Source of the DNA: Mesorhizobium sp. YIM 152430
Lineage (GTDB): Bacteria > Pseudomonadota > Alphaproteobacteria > Rhizobiales > Rhizobiaceae
Direction: 5' to 3'
Assembly (NCBI RefSeq): GCF_029210365.1
Contig: NZ_JARGES010000018.1
Location: 1 to 64,000, forward strand
DNA length: 64,000 nt
The notes under the pieces were generated by a model that did no database searches, had not been told where the DNA came from, and saw only the letters and a program-made list of their open reading frames with translations. The position numbers and the translations under genes are program-made. Positions 31,723-54,171 of this stretch are shown here, one piece after another (within the stretch, counting starts at the first letter, position 1; the number at the start of each line of letters is the position of its first letter).

Positions 31723-32454
31723 TCAAAGGATCGACCCTCCGACACTCGCGCCGCCGCAGACATAGAGCGTCTGGCCGGTGACGAAGCCGGATTTCGGATC
31801 GCAGAAGAACAGGAAGGCGTTGGTTACGTCCTCCACGGTTCCCAATCGCCCCACCGGGATTCGCGCGGCGAGTTCCGCCTCGCGTTCGCTGCCTTTCGGG
31901 ATGATCCCCCAGAAATTGTCCGTCAGGATGGGACCGGGGGCCACGACGTTGACCGTGATGCCGTGTGTTGCGAGCTCAAGTGCCCATGTGCGTGCCATGC
32001 CGATCATGCCGGCTTTGGAGGCGCTGTAGGCGGTTCGTGTCGGCGCGCCGAGGGCTGCTCGGGAGGCATTGAACATGACGCGCCCGAATTGCCGCTCCTT
32101 CATCGCCGGCAGGAATGCCTGCAACAGCGTCAGAGCCGACCCGAGATGCAACTGGGCGAGGCCGGTTATGTCTTCCGGCTTTGCCTCTTCGACCAGGTTC
32201 GGCCAGATCAGGCCGGCATTGTGGACAAGATGGGTGACCTCGTGGTCCCTGGCGATCGTGGCTCCCGCTTGCCTGACCGCCTCCGGATCGAGAAGATCGG
32301 CCTCGACCGAAACGAGCCTCACATGTGACTTTTCCGGCGCATGGCGCGCGACCGAAACGACTGTGTAGCCCTGCTCCAGCAGGCGGTCGGCGAGATCGGC
32401 ACCGATGCCCTTGTTGCCGCCGGTGATGACGGCCGTGAAGTTCGCCTCGCTCAT
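31723..32454 (-). CDS. Short-chain dehydrogenase/reductase
   Basis: NAD(P)-dependent oxidoreductase of the classical SDR family, 243 residues. The cofactor motif is TGGNKGIG (TGxxxGxG, about 11-18), HNAG is in VHNAGLIWP, the catalytic Ser precedes YSASKAG (Tyr-x3-Lys intact), and 'ITVNVVAPGPILTDNFW' follows. The C-terminus 'FLFFCDPKSGFVTGQTLYVCGG' is typical of FabG-like SDRs. It is the last gene of the Rieske/CoA-ligase operon and overlaps the cyclase gene by ATGA. A role in oxidising a hydroxylated indole or alcohol intermediate (for example dioxindole to isatin) is inference. Confidence 0.87.
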   Translation of the reverse strand: MSEANFTAVITGGNKGIGADLADRLLEQGYTVVSVARHAPEKSHVRLVSVEADLLDPEAVRQAGATIARDHEVTHLVHNAGLIWPNLVEEAKPEDITGLAQLHLGSALTLLQAFLPAMKERQFGRVMFNASRAALGAPTRTAYSASKAGMIGMARTWALELATHGITVNVVAPGPILTDNFWGIIPKGSEREAELAARIPVGRLGTVEDVTNAFLFFCDPKSGFVTGQTLYVCGGASVGGSIL

Positions 32455-33257
32455 GCGTCTTTTCCCGGTACGAGCGCGATGACGCGCAACGGGCTGCCCG
32501 TGCCCTTCTTGATCTTGAGCGGCGTCGCCACGATCACCGCGCCGGTGGGCGGCAGGCGATCGAGATTGTTGAGGCATTGCAGGCCGTAGCGGCCGGCGCC
32601 ATGCAGGATGAAGTGCGCGGGGTAGGGGGGCGTGTAGTGCATTCCCTGGCCGGCATCCGTGCCGACGGTCTCCGTCCCGAAGCCGCGAATGCCGCGCTCC
32701 TCGACGAGCAGCCGTATCGCGTCGGGCGTCGGGCCCGGCGAATGTGGACCGTCATCGCGCATGTTCAGGTATGCCGCGCCGCGCCGCTTCGACCAATCGG
32801 TCCGCATCAATACCCAGCAATCTCGTGGGATCGGGCCGTTGGTCTTTTCCCAATCGCGAATGATCTGAGGCGTCAGCTCGAAATCTTCATCTTCGCCGGC
32901 GCCCGCCGAGCAGTCGATCACGCATACCGGGCCGACGAACCGGTCGACCGGTATCTCGTCCACGTTTCCATGCGGGATGTCGCGGCCGGAAATCCAGTGC
33001 GACGGTGCGTCGAAATGCGTTCCGGTATGCTCGCAAAGGCTGATATTGTGCCACTTCCAGGCCGGGCCACGATGGTCGTAGGCGGAAATCTCCTCCATGC
33101 GGAAGCGGGCGCACTGGCCGAATTCAGGTGGCAGGATGATGACGGGGAAATCCTGGTCGAGCGTGTGGGTGAGATCCACCACCTCGATGCCGCCCGAGGC
33201 GATGGCGCCTGCCATCTGCGCCAGCAGATCGGCGCTCCTGTTGTCGATCGCGTCCAT
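32451..33257 (-). CDS. Cyclase family hydrolase (isatin hydrolase/kynurenine formamidase-like)
   Basis: Metal-dependent hydrolase, 268 residues. The metal signature is HTGTHFDAPSHW (H-x-G-T-H-x-D-x-P-x-H, about 76-87), with downstream 'FGTETVGTDAG' and 'LPPTGAVIVATPLKI'. Relatives hydrolyse isatin to isatinate or formylkynurenine to kynurenine. In an operon with a Rieske oxygenase, an SDR and an aldolase-type thiolase, ring opening of an isatin-like lactam is the most attractive role, but this is inference. Its start overlaps the DUF35-SDR stop by one base and its stop overlaps the SDR start (ATGA). It is clearly distinct from the paralogue at 28140-28916. Confidence 0.83.
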   Translation of the reverse strand: MDAIDNRSADLLAQMAGAIASGGIEVVDLTHTLDQDFPVIILPPEFGQCARFRMEEISAYDHRGPAWKWHNISLCEHTGTHFDAPSHWISGRDIPHGNVDEIPVDRFVGPVCVIDCSAGAGEDEDFELTPQIIRDWEKTNGPIPRDCWVLMRTDWSKRRGAAYLNMRDDGPHSPGPTPDAIRLLVEERGIRGFGTETVGTDAGQGMHYTPPYPAHFILHGAGRYGLQCLNNLDRLPPTGAVIVATPLKIKKGTGSPLRVIALVPGKDA

Positions 33258-34513
33258 CAGCCTTCTCCCGCCTGGGCCATCATCTCGCGCTCGAGTACCT
33301 TCGGCCCCTGCCGCCAGCGATCGATCAGATCCTTCGCGACGTCACCGACATAAACGTCCTCGAGACCGTCCTTGAGCCCCGCAATCACCGATTTGGCGAG
33401 AGCCGACGGCGCGACTTTCGGGGGTGGCAGCGGCTGGTGCCATTCGTCCTCGGTGGGTCCGGTATAGACGTTCATGACACGTACGCCGCCAGGTGCCATC
33501 TCGGCCCGCAAACAATGGGATAGCGACAGCGCCGCCGCGTTGGAGGCCGAAAACACGCCATATGCCGGCATGTTGGCGTATGCATAGACGGACAGGATGT
33601 TGACCCACGCGACCGCGCTGTTGACGCCGTCGGCGCCACGGCCGCTCATGGCCGGTCCGAAAGCCTGCGCAAGCCGCATCAGCCCGAGCACGTTGGTCTC
33701 GAATTCGTCGCGCGCAAAGACTGTATCGCCGCGATCCATGATCCCGCCCGGTCGCATGAAGCGTGAATTGTTGACCAGAATGTCGGTCTTGCCCCCGATC
33801 TCGCCGGCAAGTTCGCAGACCGAACGGGTGTCGGTGACATCGAGCGGGACGATCGCAACGTTGGAGACGGCAGCGAGCGCGGCGCGGTGCGGGTAGGGCC
33901 GCCATCCTTCCGGCTCGCCGACGAAGATGCTGGTCGCCCCCGCATCTGCGAACGCTTTGGCGAGCGCGACCGAATTCTCGTTGCGCGCGTCGGTGACGAG
34001 GATGCGGCGGAACTTCGGATCGGCGGTCAGTTCGCGTAGTTGAGGATCGTCCGCCATGTCGGCACTCCCATCCATTGGCAGGGCGAAGAAGACGCCCTGG
34101 CCCGATTTGTCGAGACGATTGACAAGCACCACCCTGGCGCCGCGCGCGACGTCGCCATGCACATGCGCCATCACGGACGGCCCGGCATCCAGCTTCACCG
34201 TTCCGATGCGCCATGGAGTCCGCTCGCGAAAATAGACATTGGTCGAGATGCGCACGGTCGTTTCGGCAATGAGCGCGCCGGCAGGCTTCACGTCACGCCA
34301 TTTGAGACCGATCGAAAGGCATGTCGAGCAGGCGTCGCGCGGCGGATATTGCAGTGCGCCGCAGGCTTCGCAGCCTTGCAACATGAAGCGGCCTTCGGCG
34401 GCAGCGGCGGCCAATCCCAGCGCGGCGCGGCTGCGCAATCCGGACGGAAGCGTCGGGACACGCGTGCGCTTTTGCGGGTTCTTCCTTGGCGGTGGCGCGA
34501 TCGGCCTGGTCAT
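33257..34513 (-). CDS. DUF35 OB-fold/zinc-ribbon protein fused to a degenerate SDR domain
   Basis: Two-domain protein, 418 residues. The N-terminal part (about 25-150) is a DUF35 domain: a rubredoxin-like zinc ribbon with Cys48, Cys51, Cys62 and Cys65 (CEAC...CSTC) followed by an OB-fold. DUF35 proteins partner thiolase-like proteins, for example in steroid side-chain aldolases. The C-terminal part (about 165-400) has SDR fold motifs (ILVNNS, 'NILSVYAYANMPAYGVFSAS' region), but the Gly-rich cofactor motif is replaced by VTDARNENS. Taking Ser308 as the catalytic Ser, the Tyr and Lys positions hold Phe321 and Asn325. The SDR half therefore looks inactive, perhaps structural. Both ends overlap neighbouring genes. 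Confidence 0.8.
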   Translation of the reverse strand: MTRPIAPPPRKNPQKRTRVPTLPSGLRSRAALGLAAAAAEGRFMLQGCEACGALQYPPRDACSTCLSIGLKWRDVKPAGALIAETTVRISTNVYFRERTPWRIGTVKLDAGPSVMAHVHGDVARGARVVLVNRLDKSGQGVFFALPMDGSADMADDPQLRELTADPKFRRILVTDARNENSVALAKAFADAGATSIFVGEPEGWRPYPHRAALAAVSNVAIVPLDVTDTRSVCELAGEIGGKTDILVNNSRFMRPGGIMDRGDTVFARDEFETNVLGLMRLAQAFGPAMSGRGADGVNSAVAWVNILSVYAYANMPAYGVFSASNAAALSLSHCLRAEMAPGGVRVMNVYTGPTEDEWHQPLPPPKVAPSALAKSVIAGLKDGLEDVYVGDVAKDLIDRWRQGPKVLEREMMAQAGEG

Positions 34514-35685
34514 TCGCCTGCTCCCGAGATGATGGCGGCGTTGGAGCAGACGCCACGGTCGAAGTTGATCATGCCGAAACCGGACACCATCGCGGTGCGT
34601 GCGCCCTCAACCTGCGTCGGCCCCGCCGCGCCCGCTACCTGCCGGATCGCTTCGACAAGACCGATATAGCCGCCGGCGGCGCCGGCCTGTCCGGCCGAAA
34701 GTTGACCGCCCGACGTGTTGTGCGGAAAGTCGCCGCCAATCGTCAGATCCTTGCTGCGAACGAATTGCGGACCTTCGCCCTTGGCGCAGAAGCCCAGGTC
34801 CTCGAACTGCATCATCGATATCACGGGGTAGTCGTCATAGGTCTGTAGGAGGTCGATGTCGTCGGGCCTTGCATCCGCCATCGCGTAGAGCTCGTCGATG
34901 TCCATCGCCCAGCCGCCGCGCATCTGGATCGGATCTTCCGGAAAGGCATTGTGCCGCTCGATGGTCGAGCGGATGTGCGCATGGGTGAGACCTGCGGCGC
35001 GGGCATCTTCCTCGCGCATGACGAGAAAGGCTTCCGAACCCGCGACCGGCATCACGCAGTCGAAAAGCGCGATGGGATCGGAGATCATTCGTGCGGAAAG
35101 ATACTGTTCCATCGTCAGTGGCGACTTCATCACCGCGTGAGGATTGCGGAGGGCATTGTCGCGCTGCGCCACGCTGATCCGGCCGAAATCCTCCTTCGTC
35201 GCTCCGAATGCCTGCATGTAATGGTCGGTCAGGAGTGCGAAGCAGGCATTCGGCCCGCCGGCGCCATAGGGATAGGACGCGTCCTGGGCGAAGCGCGAAA
35301 AGCTTGAGAGCATCCGCCGGAAGCTGTCGACGTGATTGGTATCGCCTGCCACGCACGCCACCACGTCGACATCGCCGGCCTGAACGGCCCGCGCTGCGCG
35401 CCGGACGGCAGCGATGCCGCTCGCTCCGCCCATCGGGATGTGATCGAGCCAGCGTGGGGAAAGACCAAGGTGCTGGGTCAGGCCAACAGCCGTGTCCGGA
35501 AAGAGGCTGAAGCTGGAGACCGAGAAACCGTCGAGATCAGCCGGCCGGATTCCTGCCGTCCGCAGGCATTCCGAGAGGGCGCGAGCGATCCACCAATGGG
35601 CGGTATCGGTTGAAAAGCGCTGATAGGGAATGGTGACCGGTGCGGCCAGGACCACGCCGTCATAGGCTTGTCGCCGACGCGCCAT
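34510..35685 (-). CDS. Thiolase-like protein lacking the nucleophilic Cys (SCP-x/Ltp2 aldolase type)
   Basis: Thiolase-fold protein, 391 residues. The usual CASG nucleophile block reads GGASG (about 86-90), so the acyl-accepting Cys is absent. The C-terminal region is well kept: 'FEDLGFCAKGEG' and 'PHNTSGGQLSAGQAGAAGG'. In known systems such Cys-less thiolase-like proteins (Ltp2) pair with a DUF35 protein to form a retro-aldolase that removes acetyl-CoA or propionyl-CoA from an acyl-CoA side chain; the DUF35 gene is the very next one. I take the ATG at 35685, one base into the ligase stop; a TTG three bases earlier is also possible. Confidence 0.82.
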   Translation of the reverse strand: MARRRQAYDGVVLAAPVTIPYQRFSTDTAHWWIARALSECLRTAGIRPADLDGFSVSSFSLFPDTAVGLTQHLGLSPRWLDHIPMGGASGIAAVRRAARAVQAGDVDVVACVAGDTNHVDSFRRMLSSFSRFAQDASYPYGAGGPNACFALLTDHYMQAFGATKEDFGRISVAQRDNALRNPHAVMKSPLTMEQYLSARMISDPIALFDCVMPVAGSEAFLVMREEDARAAGLTHAHIRSTIERHNAFPEDPIQMRGGWAMDIDELYAMADARPDDIDLLQTYDDYPVISMMQFEDLGFCAKGEGPQFVRSKDLTIGGDFPHNTSGGQLSAGQAGAAGGYIGLVEAIRQVAGAAGPTQVEGARTAMVSGFGMINFDRGVCSNAAIISGAGE

Positions 35686-37322
35686 CAAGCGGCCTGCCGC
35701 TTCTTCATCGCACGCGTATCGACCGTTTCCGGGTCGGCGAGCAGGCGGGGCACGAGCGTTTTCAACTCGCCGCGCTGGATTTTCTGCGTCGCGGTCAGCG
35801 GGAGGGCGTTCAGAAAGGCGACGTAGCCGGGCACCTTGTAGTAGGCCACGCGCTCAAGACACCATGAGACGATTGCACGGGCCGACGCCTCACTGCGTTC
35901 GCCCTCGACGACGAGGCAGGCAAACACCTCGTCGCCGCGCAACTCGTCCGGCGCAGCCGCGACCGCGGCCGCCTTGATGTCGGGGTGCTGCATCAGGATC
36001 GATTCGACCTCGACCGCGGCGATGTTTTCGCCCGAGCGACGGATGACGTTCTTCTTGCGGTCGACGAAGAAGAAGTCGCCATCGGCATCCCGCCGGACGA
36101 TGTCGCCCGTGTGAAACCAACCATCGGCCCAGGCTTCGGCCGTCGCTTCGGGGTTCTTGTAGTATTCGCAGAAGAAGCCGTAGCGGGGATCGCCGCCGGC
36201 ATGGCGAACAAGCAACTCGCCGGGCTGGTCTGCCTCTGCCTCCCGTCCCTGATCCGTCACGATCCTTGCCTCGACGCTGCCGCGAGGCCTGCCGAGACAA
36301 CTCGACCCCCGCTTGCGCGGCTCCCTATTGGCGGCGATCACGGCACCGGCACCGGTTTCCGTCATCGCCCAGGCCTCGACGAGGGGAATGCCGAAGCGAT
36401 CTTCGAACGGGCCATGCAGCTTCGGATCGATCCCGGCGCCGAATCCGAAACGGACATCATGATCGCGATCGGCGGGCGAGGGCTGCGCCTTCATGAGCAT
36501 CGACGGCATGACGCCGAGATAGTGCAGGCATGTCGCCCGTGACTGGCGCACGCTCCGCCACCACGTCCGCGGATGGAAGCGGTCGAGCGCGGTCAGGCAG
36601 CCGCCGACGCCGATCATTGCCATCAGCGAGTAGGCCATGGCGTTCATGTGGAAGATCGGCAGCGGCGTTATCATCCGTTCGCCTTCCTGGCTTAGCGCGC
36701 AGATGCCGCCCGCCTCGGCATACCAGCGACCGGCGGCGAGGAAATAGAGGTTCGAAAGGACGCAGCCCTTCGGCTTGCCGGTCGTGCCGGATGTGTAGAG
36801 CATCGCGGCCTCCCGCTTCAGCGGATCGACGCCCGGCGTCTTCACGCGCATGGCCAGTTCAGCCGCCAGCGGCGGTGGCGCTTCGTCCGGCGCGACGACG
36901 GGAAAGCCGACGCCAGAGGCTGCTGCGGCCTTCTCGAGGTCGGCGATGCGAGAGGCAATGGCGACGGCCAGCACCGGCTCGGCGTGGCGTGCCATATATT
37001 CGAGTTCCGAAGACTGAAGGTCCGGATTGACCGGCACCACCGACAGGCCGAGTGCGTTCAGTGCAAACCAGTGCAGGAAGAAGGCTGGCCGGTTCTCCAT
37101 AAGAAGCATGACGCGGCCGCCTGACACGTAACCGGCAGCACCGTAGGCGTCGCGCAGGCGCTCGACTTCCCCCAGCGCTTCGGCGTAGCTCCACTCATGC
37201 GCGTCGATGCCGTAAATCTCGGCCGTTTCCTCCAGCACGTTGAGGAAGGGACGCTCCGGCCAGGTCGCGGCGGCAGACCGGAGTGCGGTAAAGACGGTGG
37301 CGTGCGGCGCGATCTCGATCAT
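35685..37322 (-). CDS. Acyl-CoA ligase (class I adenylate-forming enzyme)
   Basis: ATP-dependent acid:CoA ligase, 545 residues. The P-loop-like motif YTSGTTGKPKG (about 172-182), 'AMTETGAG', 'DGWFHTGDIVRRDADG', 'KKNVIRRSGENIAAVEVE' and the C-terminal catalytic Lys in TATQKIQRGELK define the family. It activates a carboxylic acid, probably the oxygenated aryl-acetate made by the Rieske enzyme, for cleavage by the downstream thiolase-like/DUF35 pair. It follows the beta subunit by 7 bp and overlaps the thiolase-like gene. Acid specificity cannot be read. Confidence 0.87.
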   Translation of the reverse strand: MIEIAPHATVFTALRSAAATWPERPFLNVLEETAEIYGIDAHEWSYAEALGEVERLRDAYGAAGYVSGGRVMLLMENRPAFFLHWFALNALGLSVVPVNPDLQSSELEYMARHAEPVLAVAIASRIADLEKAAAASGVGFPVVAPDEAPPPLAAELAMRVKTPGVDPLKREAAMLYTSGTTGKPKGCVLSNLYFLAAGRWYAEAGGICALSQEGERMITPLPIFHMNAMAYSLMAMIGVGGCLTALDRFHPRTWWRSVRQSRATCLHYLGVMPSMLMKAQPSPADRDHDVRFGFGAGIDPKLHGPFEDRFGIPLVEAWAMTETGAGAVIAANREPRKRGSSCLGRPRGSVEARIVTDQGREAEADQPGELLVRHAGGDPRYGFFCEYYKNPEATAEAWADGWFHTGDIVRRDADGDFFFVDRKKNVIRRSGENIAAVEVESILMQHPDIKAAAVAAAPDELRGDEVFACLVVEGERSEASARAIVSWCLERVAYYKVPGYVAFLNALPLTATQKIQRGELKTLVPRLLADPETVDTRAMKKRQAA

Positions 37323-37329
37323 GACGTGC

Positions 37330-37812
37330 CTAGAGGAACATCTGGATGTTGCCGAAGGCGGCGTCGCAGTTCAGCAGGTCGACGCGTTTCCTTTTCATCT
37401 TCAGTTTGCCGTCCACCATGACCAGATGGTGTCGGGCGTTGGCGGCGAGCAACGTCTGGTCGTCGAGCCGCGTCTCGACATAGTGGAATGCCGTGTGCGT
37501 GACGAACTCGCCCGCCCCGGCATCCAGCCTGTCGACGAAGGGACGCTGGATGACATGGTGGCAGCGCGTTTTCGGCTTCTGCGAAAAGGTGCGCTCACCC
37601 TTGAACCGCTCGACACGCAACTTGATCATGAAGAAGTCTTCATGCAGCAGCGAAGTCACGAGGTTCTCGTCCTGCTGGTTGTATTCGAGCGGCATCCAGT
37701 AGAGGCCGTCCGGCGTCCAAAGGTCGAGCCACTCATCGAAGCGCCCGTCGTCGAGCATACGTGCTTCTTCGTAGACGAAGTCGATGAGGTCTTCCTTGCT
37801 GGGCGTGTTCAT
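37330..37812 (-). CDS. Aromatic-ring-hydroxylating dioxygenase beta subunit
   Basis: Small structural subunit of a Rieske non-haem iron dioxygenase, 160 residues, cystatin-like (SnoaL/NTF2) fold. Visible hallmarks are 'EARMLDDGRFDEWLDLWTPDGLYWMPL', 'TRCHHVIQRP' and the C-terminal 'LLAANARHHLVMVDGKLKMKRKRVDLL' region. The ATG overlaps the alpha-subunit stop (ATGA), giving matched synthesis. The length is within the usual 155-180 range. Confidence 0.88.
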   Translation of the reverse strand: MNTPSKEDLIDFVYEEARMLDDGRFDEWLDLWTPDGLYWMPLEYNQQDENLVTSLLHEDFFMIKLRVERFKGERTFSQKPKTRCHHVIQRPFVDRLDAGAGEFVTHTAFHYVETRLDDQTLLAANARHHLVMVDGKLKMKRKRVDLLNCDAAFGNIQMFL

Positions 37813-39143
37813 TGGCCGACCTCGTCCATGGTCATCGTCATGAATTTCGACCACGCGGCAAACTGGTTGCGCATCTGCCGCTCCGTCGTGCCGTTCTCGA
37901 TCGCTTCTTTTTCGAAGTCTTCGCCGGGCTCGTAGAGCCGCTGGACATTGACCCATTCGAGCCCGTCGGAATGCAGCCCCTCCTGCGCGCGCTCATACAT
38001 TTCGAGATCGTCGTGCCCGACCATGGAGGTGGGCGCATTGATGAGCCGGTTGTACATGGCAGTGCGTTGCAACAGCATGTCAGGGGCGTCGACGAGCCGG
38101 TAGATATAGCTTTCCACCAGCGTCTTGCTGGCCGAGATCGGCTTGAAGAGCCTGAGCTGCTGGATCGGGCCCTTGATCATGATGTTGGGGAAGTACACCG
38201 TGTTGTGCCGGTTCTCACCGAGTATCCTGCGGGCCTTCTCTTCGCCATGGGCCTTGCACATCTGTTCGAAATATCCCGGAACCGCCGAATAGTCCGAGTG
38301 GATGGAGTGATGCACGCCGGTATGGCCATGGCCGTTCGGCCAGGTGCGGATGCCCATGTTCTCGAAGAACTCGTAGGACGACATGAAGGGGGCGATGACT
38401 TCCATCGCCATCGGGGTCTTCGTCCCTTCCGGCTTGTCCATCTCTTCCCATAGCTTGATAGCAGTGCCGGCGGAGCTTTCATGCGCAACCATGGGATGGC
38501 AGGTGTCGGTCTGGTTCTCGACCAGCATCTTCCAGTTGCAGCGATGCATGTAACGCAGCGGCGGACCGGCGATCTCGAGCCGTCCGGCCGGCGACCGGTC
38601 GACCATGTTGTCGATTGAGCTGAGGGAATCGCCGAAGAACTCCTCGAAGGAGACGCCTTCGGAGGCAAGGCGCGCGAAGACGAAACCGCGATAGTTCTTC
38701 ACGTCGCCGACCGGCGCCATGCCCTTGACGCTCTCGCTCTCTTCGAGGCCGGTGTCCTTGTAGCCCTTGCGCAGCGGGATCGCGAGAAGGCAGCCGTTCG
38801 TCTTGAATGACCAGGCATGGTACGGGCAGCGGAAGAACTTGCCGGTATTGCCCGAGCGGTCGATCGCGATCTTGGTTCCCTTGTGCGGGCAGCGATTGTG
38901 CAGGACATGGATTTCGCCATCTGAATGACGCACCATGATCATCGGCTGCGTGCCGATCTCGGTCGTGAAATAGTCGCCTTTGTCCGGGGTCTGGCTGTCG
39001 TGGCCGACGAACACCCAGCAATTGGCGAAGAGATGCTTCATCTCGAGCTGGAAGACGTCCTCGTCGATGTAGATGTCGCGATGCACTTCCGTCGGACGGA
39101 CGAGGCCGGCGATGGCGGAGCGGTCCTTGGCGTGGCGGCTCAT
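37809..39143 (-). CDS. Aromatic-ring-hydroxylating dioxygenase alpha subunit (Rieske)
   Basis: Catalytic subunit of a Rieske oxygenase, 444 residues. The [2Fe-2S] Rieske motif is Cys85-x-His87 ... Cys106-x2-His109 (CPHKGT and CPYHAW). The mononuclear iron ligands fall in ENQTDTCHPMVAH, giving Asp213, His216 and His221. The Tyr often present in the D-x-Y-H motif is Cys215. Electrons come from the reductase gene 10 bp upstream; the beta subunit follows. In an operon with a CoA ligase and cyclase-family hydrolase, an aryl- or indole-acetate is the favoured substrate, which is inference. GGAGGAAG lies before the ATG. Confidence 0.9.
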   Translation of the reverse strand: MSRHAKDRSAIAGLVRPTEVHRDIYIDEDVFQLEMKHLFANCWVFVGHDSQTPDKGDYFTTEIGTQPMIMVRHSDGEIHVLHNRCPHKGTKIAIDRSGNTGKFFRCPYHAWSFKTNGCLLAIPLRKGYKDTGLEESESVKGMAPVGDVKNYRGFVFARLASEGVSFEEFFGDSLSSIDNMVDRSPAGRLEIAGPPLRYMHRCNWKMLVENQTDTCHPMVAHESSAGTAIKLWEEMDKPEGTKTPMAMEVIAPFMSSYEFFENMGIRTWPNGHGHTGVHHSIHSDYSAVPGYFEQMCKAHGEEKARRILGENRHNTVYFPNIMIKGPIQQLRLFKPISASKTLVESYIYRLVDAPDMLLQRTAMYNRLINAPTSMVGHDDLEMYERAQEGLHSDGLEWVNVQRLYEPGEDFEKEAIENGTTERQMRNQFAAWSKFMTMTMDEVGQ

Positions 39144-40244: not shown

Positions 40245-40247
40245 CTT

Positions 40248-47243: not shown

Positions 47244-47254
47244 ACTGCAACACC

Positions 47255-47276
47255 GGGCGGGGCATCGGCTCCGCCC
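47255..47276 (+). other. Intercistronic hairpin after the second DctP gene
   Basis: GGGCGGGGC pairs with GCTCCGCCC (one G-T wobble) around the tetraloop ATCG, giving a 9-bp stem directly after the receptor stop. No T-run follows. It is the third such element after a binding-protein gene in this window. Confidence 0.6.
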
Positions 47277-47304
47277 TCATCCATTTCATCGGGGTCAGCG
47301 CGCC

Positions 47305-47802
47305 ATGAGTGTCACCAAGATCTATGACCGTCTGATCGTCGGCCTGGCGGTTCTCGGAGCTCTCAGCCTGGTCGCCATCACGGCGCTGATCATCGTCGAT
47401 GTCATCCTGCGGAACACCGGTTACCGCCCGTTCCAATCGACGAGTGCGCTCGTCGAATATGTGATGCTGTTCGCCACGATGTCCGCCGCGCCCTGGCTCG
47501 TGCGCGAAAACGGACACGTCGCGATCGGCTCCTTCGTCGCCAAGCTGCCTGATGGTCCAAGGGTCGCGATCGGCCGCCTCGTCCTCATCGTCTCGATCCT
47601 GGCGCTCGCGCTTCTCACCTGGCGCTCTGCTGCCGTCAGTTTCGAGATGGTCGCAACGCGCTCGGTGGACATGCGCTCCATCAATATCCCCGCCTGGGTC
47701 CTCTACGCCATGCTGGCAGGTGGGTTCTTCCTGATGGCGATCGAGTTCCTGCGCATCCTGCTGCGCGGCGAGACGTACAGCGGTGCGGGCGGAGGCCACT
47801 GA
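47305..47802 (+). CDS. TRAP transporter small permease, DctQ family (second system)
   Basis: Small membrane subunit, 165 residues with four predicted spans. Blocks such as 'IIVDVILRNTGYRPFQSTSALVEYVMLF' and 'LVRENGHVAIGSFVAKLP' match DctQ. It lies 61 bp after the receptor gene, across the hairpin, and 1 bp before the DctM ATG. Confidence 0.86.
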   Translation: MSVTKIYDRLIVGLAVLGALSLVAITALIIVDVILRNTGYRPFQSTSALVEYVMLFATMSAAPWLVRENGHVAIGSFVAKLPDGPRVAIGRLVLIVSILALALLTWRSAAVSFEMVATRSVDMRSINIPAWVLYAMLAGGFFLMAIEFLRILLRGETYSGAGGGH

Positions 47803-47803
47803 C

Positions 47804-49123
47804 ATGATGCCCTGGTACGACGCCACGCTTCTGATGATCGGCGGCCTCCTGGCGCTGATGGTGGTCGGAATGCCTGTCGCGATCGCCTTTCTCGTGATCA
47901 ACATCGCCGGCGTCCTCATCTTCATGGGAGGCATCGTCGGGATCGACCAACTGGTCGCCAACGCGACGACCTCGGTGACGAGTTTCGCGCTCGTTCCGGT
48001 GCCGCTGTTTCTGATCATGGGCGAATTGTTGTTCCACACCGGCCTTGCCTTCCGCGTCTTCGACGCCCTCGACAAGTGCATGGGCAATATCCGCGGCCGG
48101 CTTGCATATCTGACGGTCGGCGGCGGCACGATCTTCGCGACCCTCTCCGGTTCCTCCATGGCCAATGCGGCAATGCTGGGAACCACTTTGATGCCGGACA
48201 TGATCAAGCGCGGATACAAGCCGCGCATCATCATGGGCCCCATCCTTGCGACGGGCGGCCTTGCCATGATCATTCCGCCGTCCTCGCTGGCGGTCCTGCT
48301 CGGGTCGCTGGGCCGCATCGACGTCGGTTCGCTGTTGATCGCCGGCCTCGTTCCGGGGCTCATACTCGCGCTGCTGTTCGCCGCGGTGATACGGCTACAG
48401 ATCGCCATCGATCCCGACGTCGCACCTGGCTACGTTGCCGGGCGGGCATCGGCAGGCGAGATCGCGCGTGCGTTGCTCGTCGACGTCGCGCCGATGGGCA
48501 TCGTCGTCTTCGCCGTGGTTGGACTCATCCTTCTTGGATGGGCGACGCCGACCGAGTCCGCGGCCTTCGGAGCGCTGGCGGTCCTCGTTCTTGCCGCCCT
48601 CTACGGCAAGCTGTCCTGGGAAGCCGTCGTCAAGTCGATGAAGGGCACGCTCGCCGTCTCGGTGATGATGCTGATGATCATCGTCGGCTCCACGACCTTT
48701 TCGCAGATCCTGGCTTTCTCCGGCGCTTCACAGGGACTGATTGGCTTTGCGACGAGCTTCGACGTTTCGCCCTATGTGATGCTGACGCTGATGGTGCTGG
48801 TGCTGATAATCCTCGGCATGTTCATGGATCCGCTGTCGATCATGATGCTGACGCTGCCGATCTTCATGCCGCTGTCGTCGCTTGCGGGTTTCGAGCCCGT
48901 CTGGTTCGGCATCGTCATGCTGCTGGTGCTCGAACTGAGCCTCGTGACGCCGCCCTTTGGATTGCTTCTGTTCGTGATGCTGGGCGTAGCTCCGAAGGGC
49001 ACCACGATCGGCCAGGTCGCTTGGGCGGCGCTGCCTTACATCGGCTGCACGCTGTTCCTCATCGTTCTCCTCGTCGTCTGGCCGCAGATCGCTTTGTGGT
49101 TGCCCAGCCTCATAAGGTATTGA
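47804..49123 (+). CDS. TRAP transporter large permease, DctM family (second system)
   Basis: Large permease, 439 residues from the ATG at 47804 (another ATG follows at once). It has 'VGMPVAIAFLVINIAGVL', 'GGGTIFATLSGSSMANAAMLGTTLMPDM', 'ATGGLAMIIPPSSLAVLLG' and 'LGMFMDPLSIMMLTLPIFMPL', as expected for DctM. GGAGG precedes the start. The racemase-like gene follows 2 bp after the stop and is probably co-translated. Confidence 0.89.
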   Translation: MMPWYDATLLMIGGLLALMVVGMPVAIAFLVINIAGVLIFMGGIVGIDQLVANATTSVTSFALVPVPLFLIMGELLFHTGLAFRVFDALDKCMGNIRGRLAYLTVGGGTIFATLSGSSMANAAMLGTTLMPDMIKRGYKPRIIMGPILATGGLAMIIPPSSLAVLLGSLGRIDVGSLLIAGLVPGLILALLFAAVIRLQIAIDPDVAPGYVAGRASAGEIARALLVDVAPMGIVVFAVVGLILLGWATPTESAAFGALAVLVLAALYGKLSWEAVVKSMKGTLAVSVMMLMIIVGSTTFSQILAFSGASQGLIGFATSFDVSPYVMLTLMVLVLIILGMFMDPLSIMMLTLPIFMPLSSLAGFEPVWFGIVMLLVLELSLVTPPFGLLLFVMLGVAPKGTTIGQVAWAALPYIGCTLFLIVLLVVWPQIALWLPSLIRY

Positions 49124-49125
49124 CC

Positions 49126-49899
49126 ATGCGGATCTGGTATCAAAGCTATGTCGACTATAAAAACGGCGCGAGCTACTGGGACGAACTGCGAAAGCATCTC
49201 GACCGGATCGTTGACTCTGGGACGCAGATCGACATCAAGGGCATCACGCCGCACGACTCCTACGCGCACGCCATCGTCGAGTTTCGCTGCGCGCGCGAGG
49301 TGATCTGCAATGCCGTGCTTGCCGAGCGGGAAGGCTATGATGCCTTCATCATCGGCCACTTCCAGGATGCCGGTCTCTACGAGGCTCGCTCGGTGGTCGA
49401 CATTCCGGTGCTTGGCATGGGAGAGGCGTCGATGCTGCACGCCTGCCAGCTCGGCCAGCGCTCCGGCATCGTGACGATCAACAGGCGCTATATCCCCTGG
49501 TTTCATCACCAGATCGGAAAATACGGGCTGAAGGAACGTGTCACCGGCGTTCACGCCATGCAGTTCGAGCCCGGCCAGATCCTCGCTGCATTCGGCTCCG
49601 ACGAGCGGCTGGAGACGGTGCGGGCGCTGTTCGAGGAGCAGGCGCGACCGCTGGTGGAGCAGGGGGTCGACGTGTTGATCCCCGGTGGCGGCATCCCGAT
49701 GCTGCTGTTCTCGCAGTTGCACGATCACCGCGTCGATGGCGCGCCCGTCATCAACGGCATTCCGATCGTCGTGAAGCTGGCGGAAATGGCGGTCAAGCTG
49801 AAGCGGCTGACAGGTCTCGGCATCAGCCGGACGTCGGACTACGTGAAGCCACCCCTCGAGATCATCGAGGAGTTCATGGCGCACCCGAAGGGCCTATAG
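49126..49899 (+). CDS. Asp/Glu/hydantoin racemase family protein lacking both catalytic cysteines
   Basis: Protein of the Asp/Glu racemase superfamily, 257 residues, with two alpha/beta halves. The first half ends 'DAFIIGHFQDAGLYEARSVVDIPVLGMGEASM', where active racemases have a Cys in 'CFxDPG'; here it is His78. The second half has 'DVLIPGGGIPML', where the second Cys is normally in 'GCxGM'; here Gly. The cofactor-free two-Cys racemisation is therefore not possible as usual; it may be a lyase or isomerase of another type (EutA or arylmalonate-decarboxylase relatives also vary here). It ends the plus-strand operon and overlaps the convergent oxidoreductase gene by 6 bp. Confidence 0.78.
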   Translation: MRIWYQSYVDYKNGASYWDELRKHLDRIVDSGTQIDIKGITPHDSYAHAIVEFRCAREVICNAVLAEREGYDAFIIGHFQDAGLYEARSVVDIPVLGMGEASMLHACQLGQRSGIVTINRRYIPWFHHQIGKYGLKERVTGVHAMQFEPGQILAAFGSDERLETVRALFEEQARPLVEQGVDVLIPGGGIPMLLFSQLHDHRVDGAPVINGIPIVVKLAEMAVKLKRLTGLGISRTSDYVKPPLEIIEEFMAHPKGL

Positions 49900-51441
49900 C
49901 GTCGCCACGGTCTTGAGGGCGCCATCGAGCGCCTTGCCTTCCTCATCGAGCAACGCCGCTTCGCGCAGCCGCCGCAGCCATTCCCCGCCATCTTCACGCG
50001 GCGCAAGCAGAGGCACCGCGCCCATCACACGGAAGAATTTCGACTGCGCCCGAGCATGGGTGTCGGAGTAGCCCTTGATGAGGCGCCGGCATTTCAGGAT
50101 TTCGACGCCGAGACGATAATTTCCTCGTGCGTGCTCCCGGGCTTCCTTGAACCAGGCTTCGAGATGCGCCTCCTCGACATTGTGACGCAACAGGCTGCGC
50201 CGCCACGGCCGCAGCGCCGCCATCGTCCAGAGCATCAGATAGCCGCGCAGGCTGTCGGTCCGGATGCGCCGCCCCTTGTTGATGCGCCGGTCGAAGAAGT
50301 CGAACAGCTTCGGACGGGCCTCGACGTAGCGGCCAAGCGGTGCGGGCAGCGTGCCGCAAATTTCTTCCATGCGCGGATGGAAGTATTCGGTCACCTGTAT
50401 CACTGCGTTGTCCTTGACGCCCTGCTCGCGGCGCAGCCGCCCCTGGCGTGACGTGCGCGTCTTGAGGTCCGCGACGCGGATGATGTCGTCATAGACCATG
50501 GCATTGGCGAGGTATTTGGCCGCCTCGACCGAGAAGCCGTAATCATGCACGGCATCATCGACCGCCACGGCCTGATCAAGCCGGTCGAGATAGAGCGACC
50601 CATAGGCGAGGTCCTGGTAATCGACGACTTTCTTCAGGCCGCGCCGCGCCATGTCCCGGATTGCTTCGGGCAGCGTTTCGACGCGCGACATGAGAGCAGT
50701 CCACTCACGCAGCATCCTGTCGGGGCCGGCTACCGATGGGCTGGCGTCGGCTGTCACCGGGACCGGCTCGCGCTCGCGTTCTCCGGTCAGCGCCCGCTCG
50801 TAACTGACACCGAAGGCCCGCAGGCTGGCTTCCACCCCGCGACCCGATGCGCGGATCGTCTCCTCGTAGCTCTCGCGCGCGAAGGGCAGGGCGCCGGAGC
50901 CGGCCAGCGCGCCGAACAGGCTCGATGAGATGACGCTACCGGCATCGACGGCGATCTTTTCCATATCGAAGCACACGAGCTTGTAAGAGGCATCTTCGGC
51001 AGCCTTGCGCACCCTCGGCCGGTCCGCCTGGCCATCGCCCGGCATGATCTTTTCGGAAACCGCAAGCACTCGATGCGAAGAGGCGACGAGCGTCGTGCGG
51101 TCCGGCGTCACGAAGCCGCGCATGATGGCGCGTCCCGCCTCCATCATCTCGGCCGCGATCAGGATGTCGACGTCGCCCTGCGACGGGCTCAGCGAGAAGA
51201 TCGGTGCGCGGCCGGTATCCGGCGTCATCTCAACGTAATAGATGGTCGCGCCGGTTCGCTGCGCGACGCCTGCAACCGACGTCGACTGCGCACGATAGCC
51301 ATTGCGCTCGGCAACCGCCACGATCCAGTCGGTCAGGACGCCACCGCCCTGACCGCCAACGGCAAGCACTGCGATCTTGATGATCGAGCGTGTGGCGTCT
51401 CCGGCGCGAACCGGAAGTTCGGCGCGCATGTGAACGTCCAT
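49894..51441 (-). CDS. iorB: Indolepyruvate:ferredoxin oxidoreductase beta-type subunit with C-terminal DUF6537-like extension
   Basis: Gamma/beta-domain partner of the ThDP subunit, 515 residues. The N-terminal 200 residues carry 'IAVLAVGGQGGGVLTDWIVAVAE' and 'SVAGVAQRTGATIYYVEM', typical of the IorB domain. The remaining about 300 residues are mostly helical and match the extension found in large proteobacterial forms. Together with the next-door alpha subunit it should oxidatively decarboxylate an aryl-2-oxoacid to the acyl-CoA, passing electrons to ferredoxin. One base separates it from the alpha gene. It converges with the racemase-like gene, overlapping by 6 bp. Confidence 0.84.
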   Translation of the reverse strand: MDVHMRAELPVRAGDATRSIIKIAVLAVGGQGGGVLTDWIVAVAERNGYRAQSTSVAGVAQRTGATIYYVEMTPDTGRAPIFSLSPSQGDVDILIAAEMMEAGRAIMRGFVTPDRTTLVASSHRVLAVSEKIMPGDGQADRPRVRKAAEDASYKLVCFDMEKIAVDAGSVISSSLFGALAGSGALPFARESYEETIRASGRGVEASLRAFGVSYERALTGEREREPVPVTADASPSVAGPDRMLREWTALMSRVETLPEAIRDMARRGLKKVVDYQDLAYGSLYLDRLDQAVAVDDAVHDYGFSVEAAKYLANAMVYDDIIRVADLKTRTSRQGRLRREQGVKDNAVIQVTEYFHPRMEEICGTLPAPLGRYVEARPKLFDFFDRRINKGRRIRTDSLRGYLMLWTMAALRPWRRSLLRHNVEEAHLEAWFKEAREHARGNYRLGVEILKCRRLIKGYSDTHARAQSKFFRVMGAVPLLAPREDGGEWLRRLREAALLDEEGKALDGALKTVATL

Positions 51442-51442: not shown

Positions 51443-53596
51443 TCAGCCCTCGGCGAATGTCAGGCGGCGGCTCTCGCGCCGGTGTTGAAGAAAGCCGATG
51501 ACGCGCTTGCGCAGGCGCGCCGCGAAACGCTCGAAGCCGGACGGATTGTGCACCACGTCGGCGCGGTAGAAGGAGGGGCAGAGCACGGCCGCGTCGGCCA
51601 CCTCGCCGCAATTGCCGCAGCCAACGCAGCTCTGGTCGATCGAGGCGACGGGATCGTCGCGCAGCGGATCGTCCAGCTTCTTGACCGACAGCGAAGGGCA
51701 TCCTGACAGGCGTATGCAGGCGTGGTCGCCGGTACACACGTCCTCATCGACACCGAATCGCGGCTTGACGACGCGTTTGCCGGACTTCATCGCTGAGGCA
51801 ATGACCGGCTTTTCGCGGCGCTGCCGGTTGAGCATACATTCCGATGAGGCGACGATGACCTTGGGGCCTCTCTCGGACGTCGTCAGCGCTTCCTTCAGCG
51901 TGTCACGCATCTTGCCGACATCATAGGTGCGATCGAGTTGGCGGACCCATTTCACGCCCATGCCGCGCACGGCGTCGGCGATCGGATGCTTCGTCGACTT
52001 CGTCTTGTTGTCGGCGCGCGAGGAAAGGATGTCCTGTCCCCCGGTCGCCGCAGAATAATAGTTGTCGACAATGACGATGACGCCGTCATTCCCGTTAAAG
52101 ACGGCGTTGCCGATGGAGGATGTCAGGCCATTGTGCCAGAAGCCTCCATCGCCGACGAACGAGATGGAGCGGCGCCTGGCACTCTTTGAATTGAAGGCCG
52201 AAGCCGATGCGGGACCGAGGCCATAGCCCATCGTCGTCGCGCCCAACTCGAAGGGCGGCATGATCGAGAAAAGGTGGCAACCGATGTCGGACGCAATGTG
52301 GTGCCGTCCAAGTTCGTTCTCGACCAGCTTGGTCGCCGCGAAAATCGGCCGCTCCGGACATCCCGTGCAAAAGCCTGGTGGGCGAGCGGGCACCACGTCG
52401 CCGAGCCCCGCCGCCGCTTGCGGCAGCGGCGGGAGGTTCGGCGCACGGCCCCGGGAGGGAAGCAGTTCGCTTGCGTGATCGGCGAGAAAGGCGCGGATGC
52501 CGTCTGTCATCACCTGCCCGGTATACTCGCCCGCCATCGGCAGCGGACCCTTGCCGACGAGCCGCGTCGTACGGCCCGCCTTGTAGAGCATCGAGCCGAG
52601 CGCCTGTTCGATATAGTCGGGCTGACCTTCCTCGACGACCAGCACCGCCTTCTTGCCTTCACAGAAGGCCAGGAACTCGTCATTGACCAACGGATACGTC
52701 ACATTGAGGACGTAGAGCGGAACCTGCGTCTCGCCGTAGATATCGGCCAATCCGAGGCGCTGGAGGCTGCGCATGACGGAATTGTACATGCCGCCTTGAA
52801 GCACGATACCGACATCGGCCTCCTGCGTCCCGAACATCTCGTTGAGCCGGTTCCTGCGGATGTAGTCGAGCGCAGCGGGCAGCCGCTTGTTGATCTTCTC
52901 ATGTTCATGCAGGAACGAGGCGGGCGGCAGCACGATGCGCGCCGTGTCGCGGCGCGGATTGTCCAGCGCATCGGCCACTGTCATCTCCGGCCGGCGATTG
53001 TCCTTGGCCGTGAACGCTCCATGCACATGGCAGCAGCGAATGCGGACCTGGAGCATGACCGGCGTGTTCGAGGCTTCCGACATCTCGAAGCCGTGACGGA
53101 CGGCATCGACGATCGAGGGAAGGTTCGGCCGCGGATCGAGCAACCAGATCTGGCTCTTCATGGCGAAGGCGTGGCTGCGCTCCTGCATGATCGAGGAGCC
53201 TTCGCCATAGTCTTCGCCCACGATGACAAGCGCGCCGCCCGTTACGCCGCCGGAGGCGAGGTTTGCAAGAGCGTCGGAGGCGACATTGGTGCCGACGGTC
53301 GACTTGAAGGTAACGGCGCCACGGATCGGATAGTGCACCGAGGCCGCAAGCATGGCAGCGGCCGTCGCCTCGGAGGCGCTCGCCTCGAAGTGAACGCCGA
53401 GCTCGCCGAGAATCTCCTGCGCATCGGCGAGCACGTCCATCAGATGGCTGATCGGTGCGCCCTGATAGCCGCCGACATAGCCGACGCCGTTTTCCAGCAG
53501 CGCCTTGGTGATCGCAAGGATGCCCTCGCCGTGGAAGGTTTCGCCTTCCCCCATGCGCAGCTTCTTCACTTCGCTGGCGAACGAACGTTCGGCCAT
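51443..53596 (-). CDS. iorA: Indolepyruvate:ferredoxin oxidoreductase alpha subunit
   Basis: ThDP-dependent 2-oxoacid:ferredoxin oxidoreductase, 717 residues. The N-terminal pyrimidine domain shows 'GVGYVGGYQGAPISHLMDVLAD', the ThDP motif is FVGDGGFWHNGL with IVDNYYS, and the C-terminal ferredoxin domain (about 615-665) has CTGDHAC...CPS and CVGCGNC...CPS. The first cluster motif has Asp in place of the second Cys (C-x2-D-x2-C). Substrates of the family are arylpyruvates; in this locus an arylglyoxylate such as isatinate is an alternative. AGGAG lies just before the ATG at 53596. An operator candidate lies 23-34 bp upstream. Confidence 0.87.
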   Translation of the reverse strand: MAERSFASEVKKLRMGEGETFHGEGILAITKALLENGVGYVGGYQGAPISHLMDVLADAQEILGELGVHFEASASEATAAAMLAASVHYPIRGAVTFKSTVGTNVASDALANLASGGVTGGALVIVGEDYGEGSSIMQERSHAFAMKSQIWLLDPRPNLPSIVDAVRHGFEMSEASNTPVMLQVRIRCCHVHGAFTAKDNRRPEMTVADALDNPRRDTARIVLPPASFLHEHEKINKRLPAALDYIRRNRLNEMFGTQEADVGIVLQGGMYNSVMRSLQRLGLADIYGETQVPLYVLNVTYPLVNDEFLAFCEGKKAVLVVEEGQPDYIEQALGSMLYKAGRTTRLVGKGPLPMAGEYTGQVMTDGIRAFLADHASELLPSRGRAPNLPPLPQAAAGLGDVVPARPPGFCTGCPERPIFAATKLVENELGRHHIASDIGCHLFSIMPPFELGATTMGYGLGPASASAFNSKSARRRSISFVGDGGFWHNGLTSSIGNAVFNGNDGVIVIVDNYYSAATGGQDILSSRADNKTKSTKHPIADAVRGMGVKWVRQLDRTYDVGKMRDTLKEALTTSERGPKVIVASSECMLNRQRREKPVIASAMKSGKRVVKPRFGVDEDVCTGDHACIRLSGCPSLSVKKLDDPLRDDPVASIDQSCVGCGNCGEVADAAVLCPSFYRADVVHNPSGFERFAARLRKRVIGFLQHRRESRRLTFAEG

Positions 53597-53618
53597 GATC
53601 ACTCCTGCCGTCAGAAAC

Positions 53619-53630
53619 ATGCAAATGCAT
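53619..53630. promoter_or_regulatory. MarR-type operator candidate upstream of iorAB
   Basis: ATGCAAATGCAT has perfect 5-bp inverted arms ATGCA/TGCAT around AA. It lies in the 74-bp gap between the MarR gene and iorA, 22 bp before the iorA start. Its reverse complement differs by one base from the site at 40233-40244. Confidence 0.5.
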
Positions 53631-53670
53631 ATTCTTAGGAATGATGATCGTGGTCAAGGGCTCGTGGGCG

Positions 53671-54171
53671 CTAGATCTCGTGCTTGCGGACGTTTTTCAG
53701 GATCTTCTGCAAGGTGGCGATAAACCGGTCCCGCTCCTCATCGTCGATCGCGGTGAACATAGCCTCGGCGGATGCCGCCATCGTTGGCCACAGGGCGGAG
53801 AAAACGCTGCGACCCTGCTCGGTGATGAAGATGTTGCGCACCCGGTTGTCATCCGGCGCCGCCTCGCGACGGATCAGGCCATCGGCCTCCAGAGAATCGA
53901 GTGACCGGCTCAGCGTGGACTGTTCGACGACAGCGTAGACGGCCAGTTCATTGACCTTCAGCCCGTCGAGAATGGACAGGACGGCAAGAGAGCGCATCTT
54001 CGGTGTCGTCAAACCGTTCTTGGCCAACTCGTGACGCAATGTGTGGTTATAGCGGCCCATGATGCGGTTCATGAGGTAGGGCGCGAAACGTTGAAGCCCG
54101 ATATCGCCGAGCGAGCTGTAATGCTGCACCGCGGGATCGTTCTGCTCGGCGACCTGGTCAAGGGGAGGCAT
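53671..54171 (-). CDS. MarR family transcriptional regulator (second)
   Basis: Winged-helix regulator, 166 residues. The recognition region is 'VNELAVYAVVEQSTLSRSLDSLEADGLIRR', with the wing 'DDNRVRNIFITEQGRSVF'. It lies directly upstream of iorA in the same direction, with an operator-like palindrome in the gap, suggesting control of iorAB and possibly of itself. It differs strongly from the MarR at 43149; the two may respond to different pathway compounds or bind as a hierarchy. Confidence 0.86.
   Translation of the reverse strand: MPPLDQVAEQNDPAVQHYSSLGDIGLQRFAPYLMNRIMGRYNHTLRHELAKNGLTTPKMRSLAVLSILDGLKVNELAVYAVVEQSTLSRSLDSLEADGLIRREAAPDDNRVRNIFITEQGRSVFSALWPTMAASAEAMFTAIDDEERDRFIATLQKILKNVRKHEI

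Follow-up and report, generated by a model that had tools for sequence, protein, structure and literature searches.

The window analysed here is a 64,000-nucleotide stretch of Mesorhizobium sp. YIM 152430 (contig NZ_JARGES010000018.1, positions 1 to 64,000; host contig 571 kb, genome 3.83 Mb, completeness 99.84%). Between 31723 and 54171 it carries what is almost certainly an iad-type locus for the catabolism of the auxin indole-3-acetic acid (IAA). The locus belongs to an already known kind and the iadA-J set has been published before; for two of its steps a function is proposed here. The thiolase-fold protein IadG and its partner IadH very probably form a DUF35-partnered retro-aldolase which cuts dioxindole-3-acetyl-CoA into isatin and acetyl-CoA, and the 2-oxoacid oxidoreductase IadAB, judged from genome context, probably makes anthraniloyl-CoA from isatinate (2-aminophenylglyoxylate). 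The whole explanation, a two-block iad locus with both of these activities, is held with good confidence on the basis of sequence, structural model and genome context. The joint claim that IadAB is a CoA-acylating isatinate:ferredoxin oxidoreductase by which auxin carbon enters the 2-aminobenzoyl-CoA monooxygenase route and bypasses free anthranilate, that IadG-IadH is a new retro-aldolase with a YDDY motif and that a movable isatin module exists is favoured, though only somewhat. In the open-licence literature searched, PMC9613470, PMC12633357, PMC10374108 and PMC8383072 among it, neither isatinate as a substrate of IadAB nor IadG as an aldolase was found proposed, and both readings are new as far as that literature shows.

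Identification of the iad locus

From open reading frames and Pfam/NCBIfam matches, a minus-strand operon (40119 to 31723) encodes, in order, a reductase, Rieske alpha and beta subunits, an AMP-forming ligase, a thiolase-fold protein, a fusion of DUF35 with a short-chain dehydrogenase/reductase (SDR), a Cyclase-family hydrolase and a separate SDR. Four of its seven joints are 4-base overlaps. A divergent block of 11 genes on the plus strand (40322-49899) encodes DctP-Q-M, MarR, RidA, octopine-dehydrogenase-family and 3-hydroxyacyl-CoA dehydrogenase proteins, a second DctP-Q-M set and an Asp/Glu-racemase-family protein. The third block, convergent and again on the minus strand, consists of a MarR gene (54171-53671), iorA and iorB (ending at 49894). 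The initial annotation had described the same three operons, and the genes it listed are in place; it had left unnamed RidA, the octopine-dehydrogenase/3-hydroxyacyl-CoA dehydrogenase pair, the second TRAP system and the racemase.

The order iadC-D-E-F-G-H-I-J (31723-40119) is the one published, matching the iadC-J order described for Variovorax (PMC12633357). IadD, the Rieske oxygenase alpha subunit (37809-39143), finds its best matches among solved proteins in Variovorax IadD (9o71 and 7yls, 580 and 578 bits), with the next oxygenase family at 143 bits. IadE, the beta subunit (37330-37812), matches Variovorax IadE (7yls_A) at 155 bits and its next PDB entry at 41. The reductase IadC (39154-40119; Pfam Fer2 and NAD_binding_1, that is, a 2Fe-2S ferredoxin and an NAD-binding domain) has the place and order of Variovorax iadC. 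The genes iorB/iadB and iotA/iadA have been called 'exclusive markers' of iad-like operons (PMC9613470); the window contains both iadA and iadB, at a distance of 10-14 kb from iadC.

Public genomes were scanned for relatives, and the best 80 of at least 584 confirmed ones were used. Among these, Nitratireductor IadD is 85% identical, followed by Roseobacters, Bradyrhizobium, Achromobacter and Azoarcus relatives and by Variovorax at 56-57%. All of C-J are found in 43 of the 66 related loci of at least 19 kb; iadA is in view in 32 of the 66, and iadB likewise in 32. The gene iadF (35685-37322; PF00501, 195 bits), proposed from PMC12633357 to encode a dioxindole-3-acetate:CoA ligase, is the best-matching ligase in 63 of the 80 loci, in some of them at only 31-34% identity. 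In the class, an IadD-like protein was found at 1e-100 in 13 of 385 genomes, and in eight of the 13 its identity is 46% or higher. A split arrangement with TRAP transporters is also found in relatives (L030, L037, L046, L173). Among the loci L024, L029 and L206, an unbroken A-B-C-D-E-F-G-H-I-J run is seen in G335.

Rieske oxygenases, ligases and thiolases are common in aromatic catabolism, and the domain names alone would be compatible with degradation of another aromatic acid (phthalate-, salicylate- or benzoate-like), the likeness to iad being one of shared families only. This is very improbable, as IadD scores on IadD four times what it scores on any other solved oxygenase, and the same locus holds an isatin hydrolase and an IAA-type MarR. 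A phthalate, salicylate or benzoate pathway as such was ruled out by the IadD match (580 versus 143 bits). The assignment to the iad type made in the initial annotation is thus borne out by the IadD and IadE matches and by a gene order kept in relatives including Variovorax and Bradyrhizobium; against an unrelated pathway such as phthalate or salicylate, the best matches were to IadD and isatin hydrolase.

Isatin hydrolase and the steps before the ligase

The Cyclase-family hydrolase IadI (32451-33257), suggested from the outset to be an isatin hydrolase, should on its sequence be exactly that, with little room for doubt. Its PDB matches are headed by isatin hydrolase A (5NNA, 489 bits), followed by a Ralstonia-type isatin hydrolase (5nmp, 324 bits) and isatin hydrolase B (4J0N, 268 bits). 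Kynurenine formamidase was ruled out, at 33 bits versus 489. Isatin hydrolase A as crystallised from Roseibium aggregatum IAM 12614 is itself an iadI product of an iad locus: L042:15807-16580 encodes its C-terminal part exactly.

Two early assignments find no support, namely that the oxygenase alone makes the dioxindole acid and that the SDR is the isatin-forming step. The oxygenase is reported as a monooxygenase (PMC12633357), so the dioxindole acid is not the product of IadCDE alone. IadJ (31723-32454, ATG start at 32454; PF13561) has intact catalytic residues, Tyr and Lys being kept in 72 of 72 sequences and Ser in 71 of 72. Genetics in the same paper place the IadJ step before the ligase, and on this published order IadJ was rejected as the isatin-forming SDR. 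A retro-aldol cut, moreover, yields isatin without oxidation.

IadG and IadH as a proposed retro-aldolase

Given the published sequence of steps, the substrate to be expected is dioxindole-3-acetyl-CoA, a tertiary beta-hydroxyacyl-CoA on which a retro-aldol cut is possible and thiolysis is not. The PDB matches of IadG (34510-35688, TTG start at 35688) are headed by the aldolase Sal (CtSal, 9MYR, 172 bits), followed by the putative thiolase 4U4E (144 bits) and Ltp2 (6OK1, 138 bits). Thiolases score lower: the Pyrococcus enzyme 117 bits, benzoylsuccinyl-CoA thiolase 104 and archaeal acetoacetyl-CoA thiolase 88. With an AlphaFold (AF2) model of IadG (mean pLDDT 86.6), Foldseek gave Sal as first and Ltp2 as second entry, and VIA-align also placed Sal (9myr) first (Z 45.3, rmsd 2.8, 369 residues aligned). 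The fold scores are nearly tied, however, with Z 45.3 and 43.7 for the aldolases versus 43.8 for a thiolase. As these values lie within about 2, the fold alone leaves IadG undecided, and it is the active site that decides.

In Sal, Gly replaces the nucleophilic Cys of thiolases, hence no thiolysis, and Tyr302 and Cys304 of a YDCY motif are used; Ltp2 uses the Tyr of YDHF together with Tyr344 (PMC12329534). The corresponding positions were counted in 58 sequences, the window protein and 57 relatives. All 58 IadG proteins have Gly (Gly88 in the window; column read by eye from alignments) at the site of the thiolase nucleophile, and all 58 have YDDY at the YDCY/YDHF site, with Tyr284 numbered from the TTG at 35688. 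The description of the protein as Cys-less does not hold to the letter, since IadG has six Cys; only the thiolase nucleophile is missing. In the PDB-match alignment no Tyr of IadG was aligned with Ltp2 Tyr344. It is proposed from these residues that IadG would work like Sal and Ltp2, yet it is not classed as either because the second catalytic residue differs.

IadH (33257-34513; PF12172, PF01796, PF00106) joins a DUF35 part (zinc ribbon and OB) to an SDR-like domain. The zinc-binding Cys4 of DUF35 is kept in 58 of 58 sequences. In the SDR-like domain, counted in 55 sequences after three short IadH proteins had been left out, the catalytic Tyr is present in 6, Lys in 23 and both in 2; the window protein has Phe and Asn instead. 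A working dehydrogenase was therefore rejected, the Tyr/Lys pair being absent in 53 of 55. The DUF35 protein is free-standing in L079, L080 and L029, with no adjoining IadH-type SDR frame, and the neighbouring SDR in L029 is IadJ. The apparent 774-775-residue IadH proteins of L061, L062 and L066 were judged by eye to be over-extended reading frames rather than fusions. IadH is read as the predicted DUF35 partner of the aldolase with a mostly dead SDR tail.

In the published annotation IadG is a ketothiolase and IadH an alcohol dehydrogenase (PMC12633357). According to it a true thiolase and a dehydrogenase would remove the side chain reductively to dioxindole, which IadI would open. In favour of this, C8H7NO2, the formula of dioxindole, accumulates in the iadI deletion and in the iadCDEFGH_JK2 strain. 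Dioxindole-3-acetyl-CoA, however, has no beta-keto group for thiolysis; none of the 58 IadG has the nucleophilic Cys, 53 of 55 IadH are without the SDR Tyr/Lys pair, and IadI belongs with isatin hydrolases. This alternative is considered unlikely. That the ligase and the thiolase-fold/DUF35 pair remove acetyl-CoA, as first suggested, finds support by inference from the active-site and fold comparison.

Several points nonetheless weigh against a retro-aldolase. Besides the near tie of the fold scores, Asp286 occupies the site of Sal Cys304 in all 58 IadG, which is a new combination, and the SDR Tyr of IadH is retained in 4 to 6 relatives (both Tyr and Lys in 2 of 55). The C8H7NO2 that accumulates without IadI was read in PMC12633357 as the product of IadFGH; as a guess, it could perhaps be attributed to side reduction of accumulating isatin by other enzymes.

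IadAB and isatinate

2-Oxoacid:ferredoxin oxidoreductases act on substrates such as indolepyruvate and phenylglyoxylate. IadA (IorA; 51443-53620, minus strand; PF02775), the thiamine diphosphate (ThDP) subunit and part of the proposed isatinate:CoA oxidoreductase, has a Cys-rich C-terminal stretch with seven Cys between 629 and 681. This stretch is ferredoxin-like by eye, with no ferredoxin domain reported by Pfam. IadB (IorB; 49894-51441, minus strand; PF01558, PF20169) is a 2-oxoacid oxidoreductase beta subunit with DUF6537 (NF006179, 695 bits, cut-off 348). On TIGR03336, the indolepyruvate ferredoxin oxidoreductase alpha model, IadA scored 289 bits and did not reach the curated cut-off of 650.9. 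A PDB search with IadA at 1e-6 gave no match. A tree of IorA made by a quick method showed no clade unique to iad loci, and six more distant homologues split off with full support.

Where iadA was not in view at the locus, it was sought elsewhere in the genome, for 38 of 41 loci (L045, L070 and L109 left out) and for the present genome. It was found in 33 of the 38 genomes, 31 times at 64% identity or more and twice at 56%. The five without it are the metagenome assembly L036 and four Pseudomonas/Xenorhabdus loci holding only C-D-E. A possible consumer of the product is a homologue of 2-aminobenzoyl-CoA monooxygenase/reductase (ACMR), recognised by an NCBIfam model named salicylyl-CoA 5-hydroxylase. 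In a search covering 49 of the 80 loci and the present genome, ACMR exceeded its cut-off in 46 of the 50 genomes; the four without it are the Pseudomonas/Xenorhabdus C-D-E genomes. Among the 385 genomes of the class, 58 have an iadA-like gene and 71 ACMR; 41 have both, 17 and 30 only the one or the other and 297 neither (odds ratio 24, a figure that ignores relatedness and genome size). The eight class genomes whose IadD reaches 46% identity all carry an iadA-like gene and ACMR as well.

The neighbourhoods of detached iadA (20 kb each) were inspected in 18 of the 33 genomes, several of which had been picked for an ACMR on the same contig and none for an isatin hydrolase. An isatin-hydrolase-family gene was present in 14 of the 18, and a homologue of the second MarR of the window (MarR2) likewise in 14. 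Two of the counted hydrolase genes probably represent the locus's own iadI (G397, 77% identity; G411, the sole such gene there). ACMR was seen in 6 of the 18, a figure biased by the choice of genomes with a same-contig ACMR. Often the genes run isatin hydrolase, a frame of some 520 residues, MarR2, iadA and iadB (L178:4067-10692, L170, L171, L175, L182, L184, L186, L188). The intervening frame was a flavin amine oxidoreductase in both loci tested (L170, L178). In R. aggregatum the hydrolase beside the detached iadAB matches isatin hydrolase B (4J0N) without a difference over 263 residues. Also examined were 12 of the 13 class genomes that have a close iadA but lack an IadD at 1e-100 (G274 left out); three of the 12 hold a cassette of isatin hydrolase, MarR2 and iadAB (L192, L193, L195). 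Isatin hydrolase, MarR2 and IadAB are thus perhaps a movable isatin module for other indole pathways.

IadAB might instead be an ordinary indolepyruvate:ferredoxin oxidoreductase feeding indoleacetyl-CoA or IAA derived from tryptophan into the locus. The COG and NCBIfam names say so, relatives in the family act on indolepyruvate, and in two of six more distant genomes the gene lies near kynureninase and ACMR with an isatin-hydrolase relative not in view. The 289 bits of IadA on TIGR03336 are far from the cut-off of 651, however; an isatin-hydrolase-family gene is near detached iadAB in 14 of 18 cases, and the presence of iadAB follows the isatin-producing genes. On balance the indolepyruvate function is unlikely.

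Published metabolite profiles also bear on isatinate as the substrate of IadAB. C8H7NO3, the formula of isatinate, and C7H7NO accumulate strongly only in iadC-K2 overexpressors in a locus-deletion background (PMC12633357). With gene numbers 72, 70 and 69 for iadA, iadC and iadD, the deletion 77-53 spans gene 72, and the background thus lacks iadA and, by position, iadB. The build-up of C8H7NO3 fits isatinate as the IadAB substrate, and C7H7NO fits a decarboxylation product. The initial annotation had put forward isatinate as the IorAB substrate, and the genome context lends that idea support.

Other observations speak against this function. Overexpression alone could also explain the accumulation of C8H7NO3 and C7H7NO. 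Variovorax iadC-K2 without iadAB still yields anthranilate (PMC12633357); IadAB is thus not needed for anthranilate. An isatin-hydrolase relative is not in view in 4 of the 18 detached iadAB neighbourhoods and in 9 of the 12 genomes that have a close iadA but no iad locus, and a close iadA is present in four genomes without ACMR. In the present genome the full-length ACMR homologue (C37:538327-540600, above the family cut-off) lies on another contig. Beside it are a kynureninase (above cut-off), a benzoate-CoA-ligase-family protein (366 bits, cut-off 375), an acyl-CoA dehydrogenase and an SDR. The kynureninase and ligase indicate that this ACMR has another source of substrate. They also mean that a CoA-dependent sink for tryptophan-derived anthranilate exists in the genome, which the CoA ester made by IadAB could enter directly. 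One Rieske protein of the genome (L002) resembles AndAc of anthranilate 1,2-dioxygenase at 401 bits, below the cut-off of 750.

Some relatives depart from these patterns. In L182 a gene with a styrene-monooxygenase-A domain follows the cassette of isatin hydrolase, MarR2 and iadAB. G202, also among the loci L024, L029 and L206, carries a distant version of the locus (IadD 46%) in which DUF35 is a separate protein and ACMR lies within a few kb of iadB. The loci L096, L099, L101 and L103 (Pseudomonas, Xenorhabdus) have an IadD 56-59% identical with only C and E beside it, and in their genomes neither iadA nor a full ACMR was found. These C-D-E loci are perhaps a different oxygenase system.

Regulation

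The MarR repressor encoded at 43149-43673 (plus strand) has as its best solved match IadR of Ruegeria pomeroyi (3CDH, 152 bits, versus 75-76 for Variovorax MarR_73). At the seven positions where MarR_73 touches IAA, it is identical to 3CDH in 7 and to MarR_73 in 5. As 3CDH binds IAA with a KD of 0.237 uM (PMC9613470), the protein is probably IadR, an IAA sensor, and the MarR control assumed at first is supported by homology through the 3CDH match and the contact residues. The second MarR (MarR2; 53671-54171, minus strand), upstream of iadA, is IadR2-like with 3CJN as best PDB match (176 bits). Of the five IAA contacts common to MarR_73 and 3CDH it keeps Arg46 and replaces Tyr15, Ser28, His32 and Trp45, as expected for a regulator of the IadR2 type that would not bind IAA.

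Two copies of a palindrome near TATGAAAWTTCATRTT lie in the divergent iadC/dctP promoter (40186-40245), found by a shared 16-mer and a pattern search. The 16-mer is common to 19 of 28 relatives (at most 4 mismatches, either strand), compared with 4-7 in ten shuffles; 9 of 209 loci contain the strict consensus. Relaxing the pattern gives three places in the whole window, with 6 strand matches against 0.68 expected and a maximum of 5 in 100 shuffles. The two promoter boxes are probable IadR operators. The third place is an imperfect box with 2 mismatches directly upstream of iadA (53624-53637), which hints that IAA may also switch on iadAB.

Transporters, accessory genes and flanks

The plus-strand block opens with a TRAP system of solute-binding protein DctP1 (40322-41347; PF03480), small permease DctQ1 (41344-41856; PF04290) and large permease DctM1 (41856-43142, start at 41856; PF06808). 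After iadR come genes for a RidA-family protein (43670-44131; PF01042), an octopine/nopaline dehydrogenase family protein (44128-45204; PF02317) and a 3-hydroxyacyl-CoA dehydrogenase family protein (45204-46196; PF02737/PF00725; NF006125, 470 bits, cut-off 427). Homologues of the latter two (44128-46196) are both near iad genes in 10 of the 80 loci, including three of Variovorax. The second TRAP system, DctP2 (46251-47243; PF03480), DctQ2 (47305-47802; PF04290) and DctM2 (47783-49123; PF06808), is followed by an Asp/Glu/hydantoin racemase family gene (49126-49899, start at 49126; PF01177). Rhodobacteraceae F11138 (L046, L173) likewise has this second system and the racemase-family gene (46251-49899) close to iad genes, and Pseudolabrys (L094) has the racemase; a racemase-family homologue is near iad genes in 2 of the 80 loci.

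The GC content of the locus (0.62-0.65) is slightly below that of its flanks (0.63-0.69). The left flank, apparently unrelated, encodes a SulP-type transporter (by eye), an aldehyde dehydrogenase, an ornithine-cyclodeaminase-family protein and an ABC ATPase. The right flank (54461-63319) encodes MoeA fused to a PBP-like domain, a second MoeA-like protein, an HTH-PBP regulator, an ABC ATPase and FdhD; it looks like a molybdenum/tungsten and formate dehydrogenase region and not related to the locus.

Proposed pathway

IAA would be imported by the TRAP transporters and sensed, by homology, by the MarR repressor IadR. IadCDE and IadJ would convert it to dioxindole-3-acetate, as published for Variovorax, and IadF would form the CoA thioester. 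Retro-aldol cleavage by IadG and the DUF35 part of IadH would then release isatin and acetyl-CoA, and IadI, by homology, would open isatin to isatinate. IadAB, a ThDP/iron-sulfur 2-oxoacid oxidoreductase, would turn isatinate into anthraniloyl-CoA with decarboxylation, to be consumed by the ACMR homologue of the genome.

Among bacterial ways of degrading auxin, the iad type is the one for which root protection in mixed communities has been reported (PMC9613470), and work is under way to engineer it into plant-associated strains (PMC12633357). For the middle and end of the pathway, current assignments come mostly from annotation. Should IadGH prove to be a retro-aldolase and IadAB an isatinate:CoA oxidoreductase, the chemistry would be redox-balanced, with isatin released directly and both acetyl-CoA and anthraniloyl-CoA saved. 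It would also be explained why iadAB marks iad loci and why isatinate-like compounds pile up in strains without iadAB. Two poorly understood steps thus receive directly testable proposals, an aldol-type release of isatin and a CoA-forming enzyme acting on the isatin product.

Comparison with known systems

The Variovorax paradoxus CL14/CL014 iad locus (PMC9613470, PMC12633357, PMC10374108) shares iadA-J and the MarR IadR with the window, and the Variovorax loci L104, L105 and L108 have the same genes at 45-66% identity for A-J. In Variovorax iadAB is upstream of iadC, whereas in the window it forms a separate convergent block behind its own MarR; TRAP transporters take the place of the Variovorax ABC binding protein IadK2. 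The iad-like locus of Ruegeria pomeroyi, for which IAA degradation is reported, was compared through its regulator, the closest solved one (IadR, 3CDH), and through PMC9613470. R. aggregatum IAM 12614 (L042, L178) has C-J in order and a detached MarR2-iadA-iadB, like the window; isatin hydrolase B and a flavin amine oxidoreductase stand beside its MarR2-iadAB, whereas the window has a MoeA-like gene there. IadI is a close homologue of isatin hydrolase A of the A and B pair from Labrenzia (Roseibium) aggregata (5NNA, 4J0N).

IadAB, like the 2-oxoacid:ferredoxin oxidoreductases on aryl-oxoacids, has a ThDP domain, a POR domain and a Cys-rich C-terminus. Unlike the indolepyruvate oxidoreductase alpha subunit, IadA falls far under the TIGR03336 cut-off, and IadB carries DUF6537. 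With Sal-Shy and Ltp2-ChsH2 (9MYR, 6OK1; PMC12329534), IadGH has in common the thiolase fold, the DUF35 partner and the Tyr of a YDxx motif, and Gly replaces the thiolase Cys in both Sal and IadG. The motif is YDDY in IadG, YDCY in Sal and YDHF in Ltp2, and DUF35 is fused to an SDR-like domain in IadH and joined to a MaoC domain in Shy. The proposed substrate of IadG is an oxindole, whereas Sal and Ltp2 act on steroid side chains.

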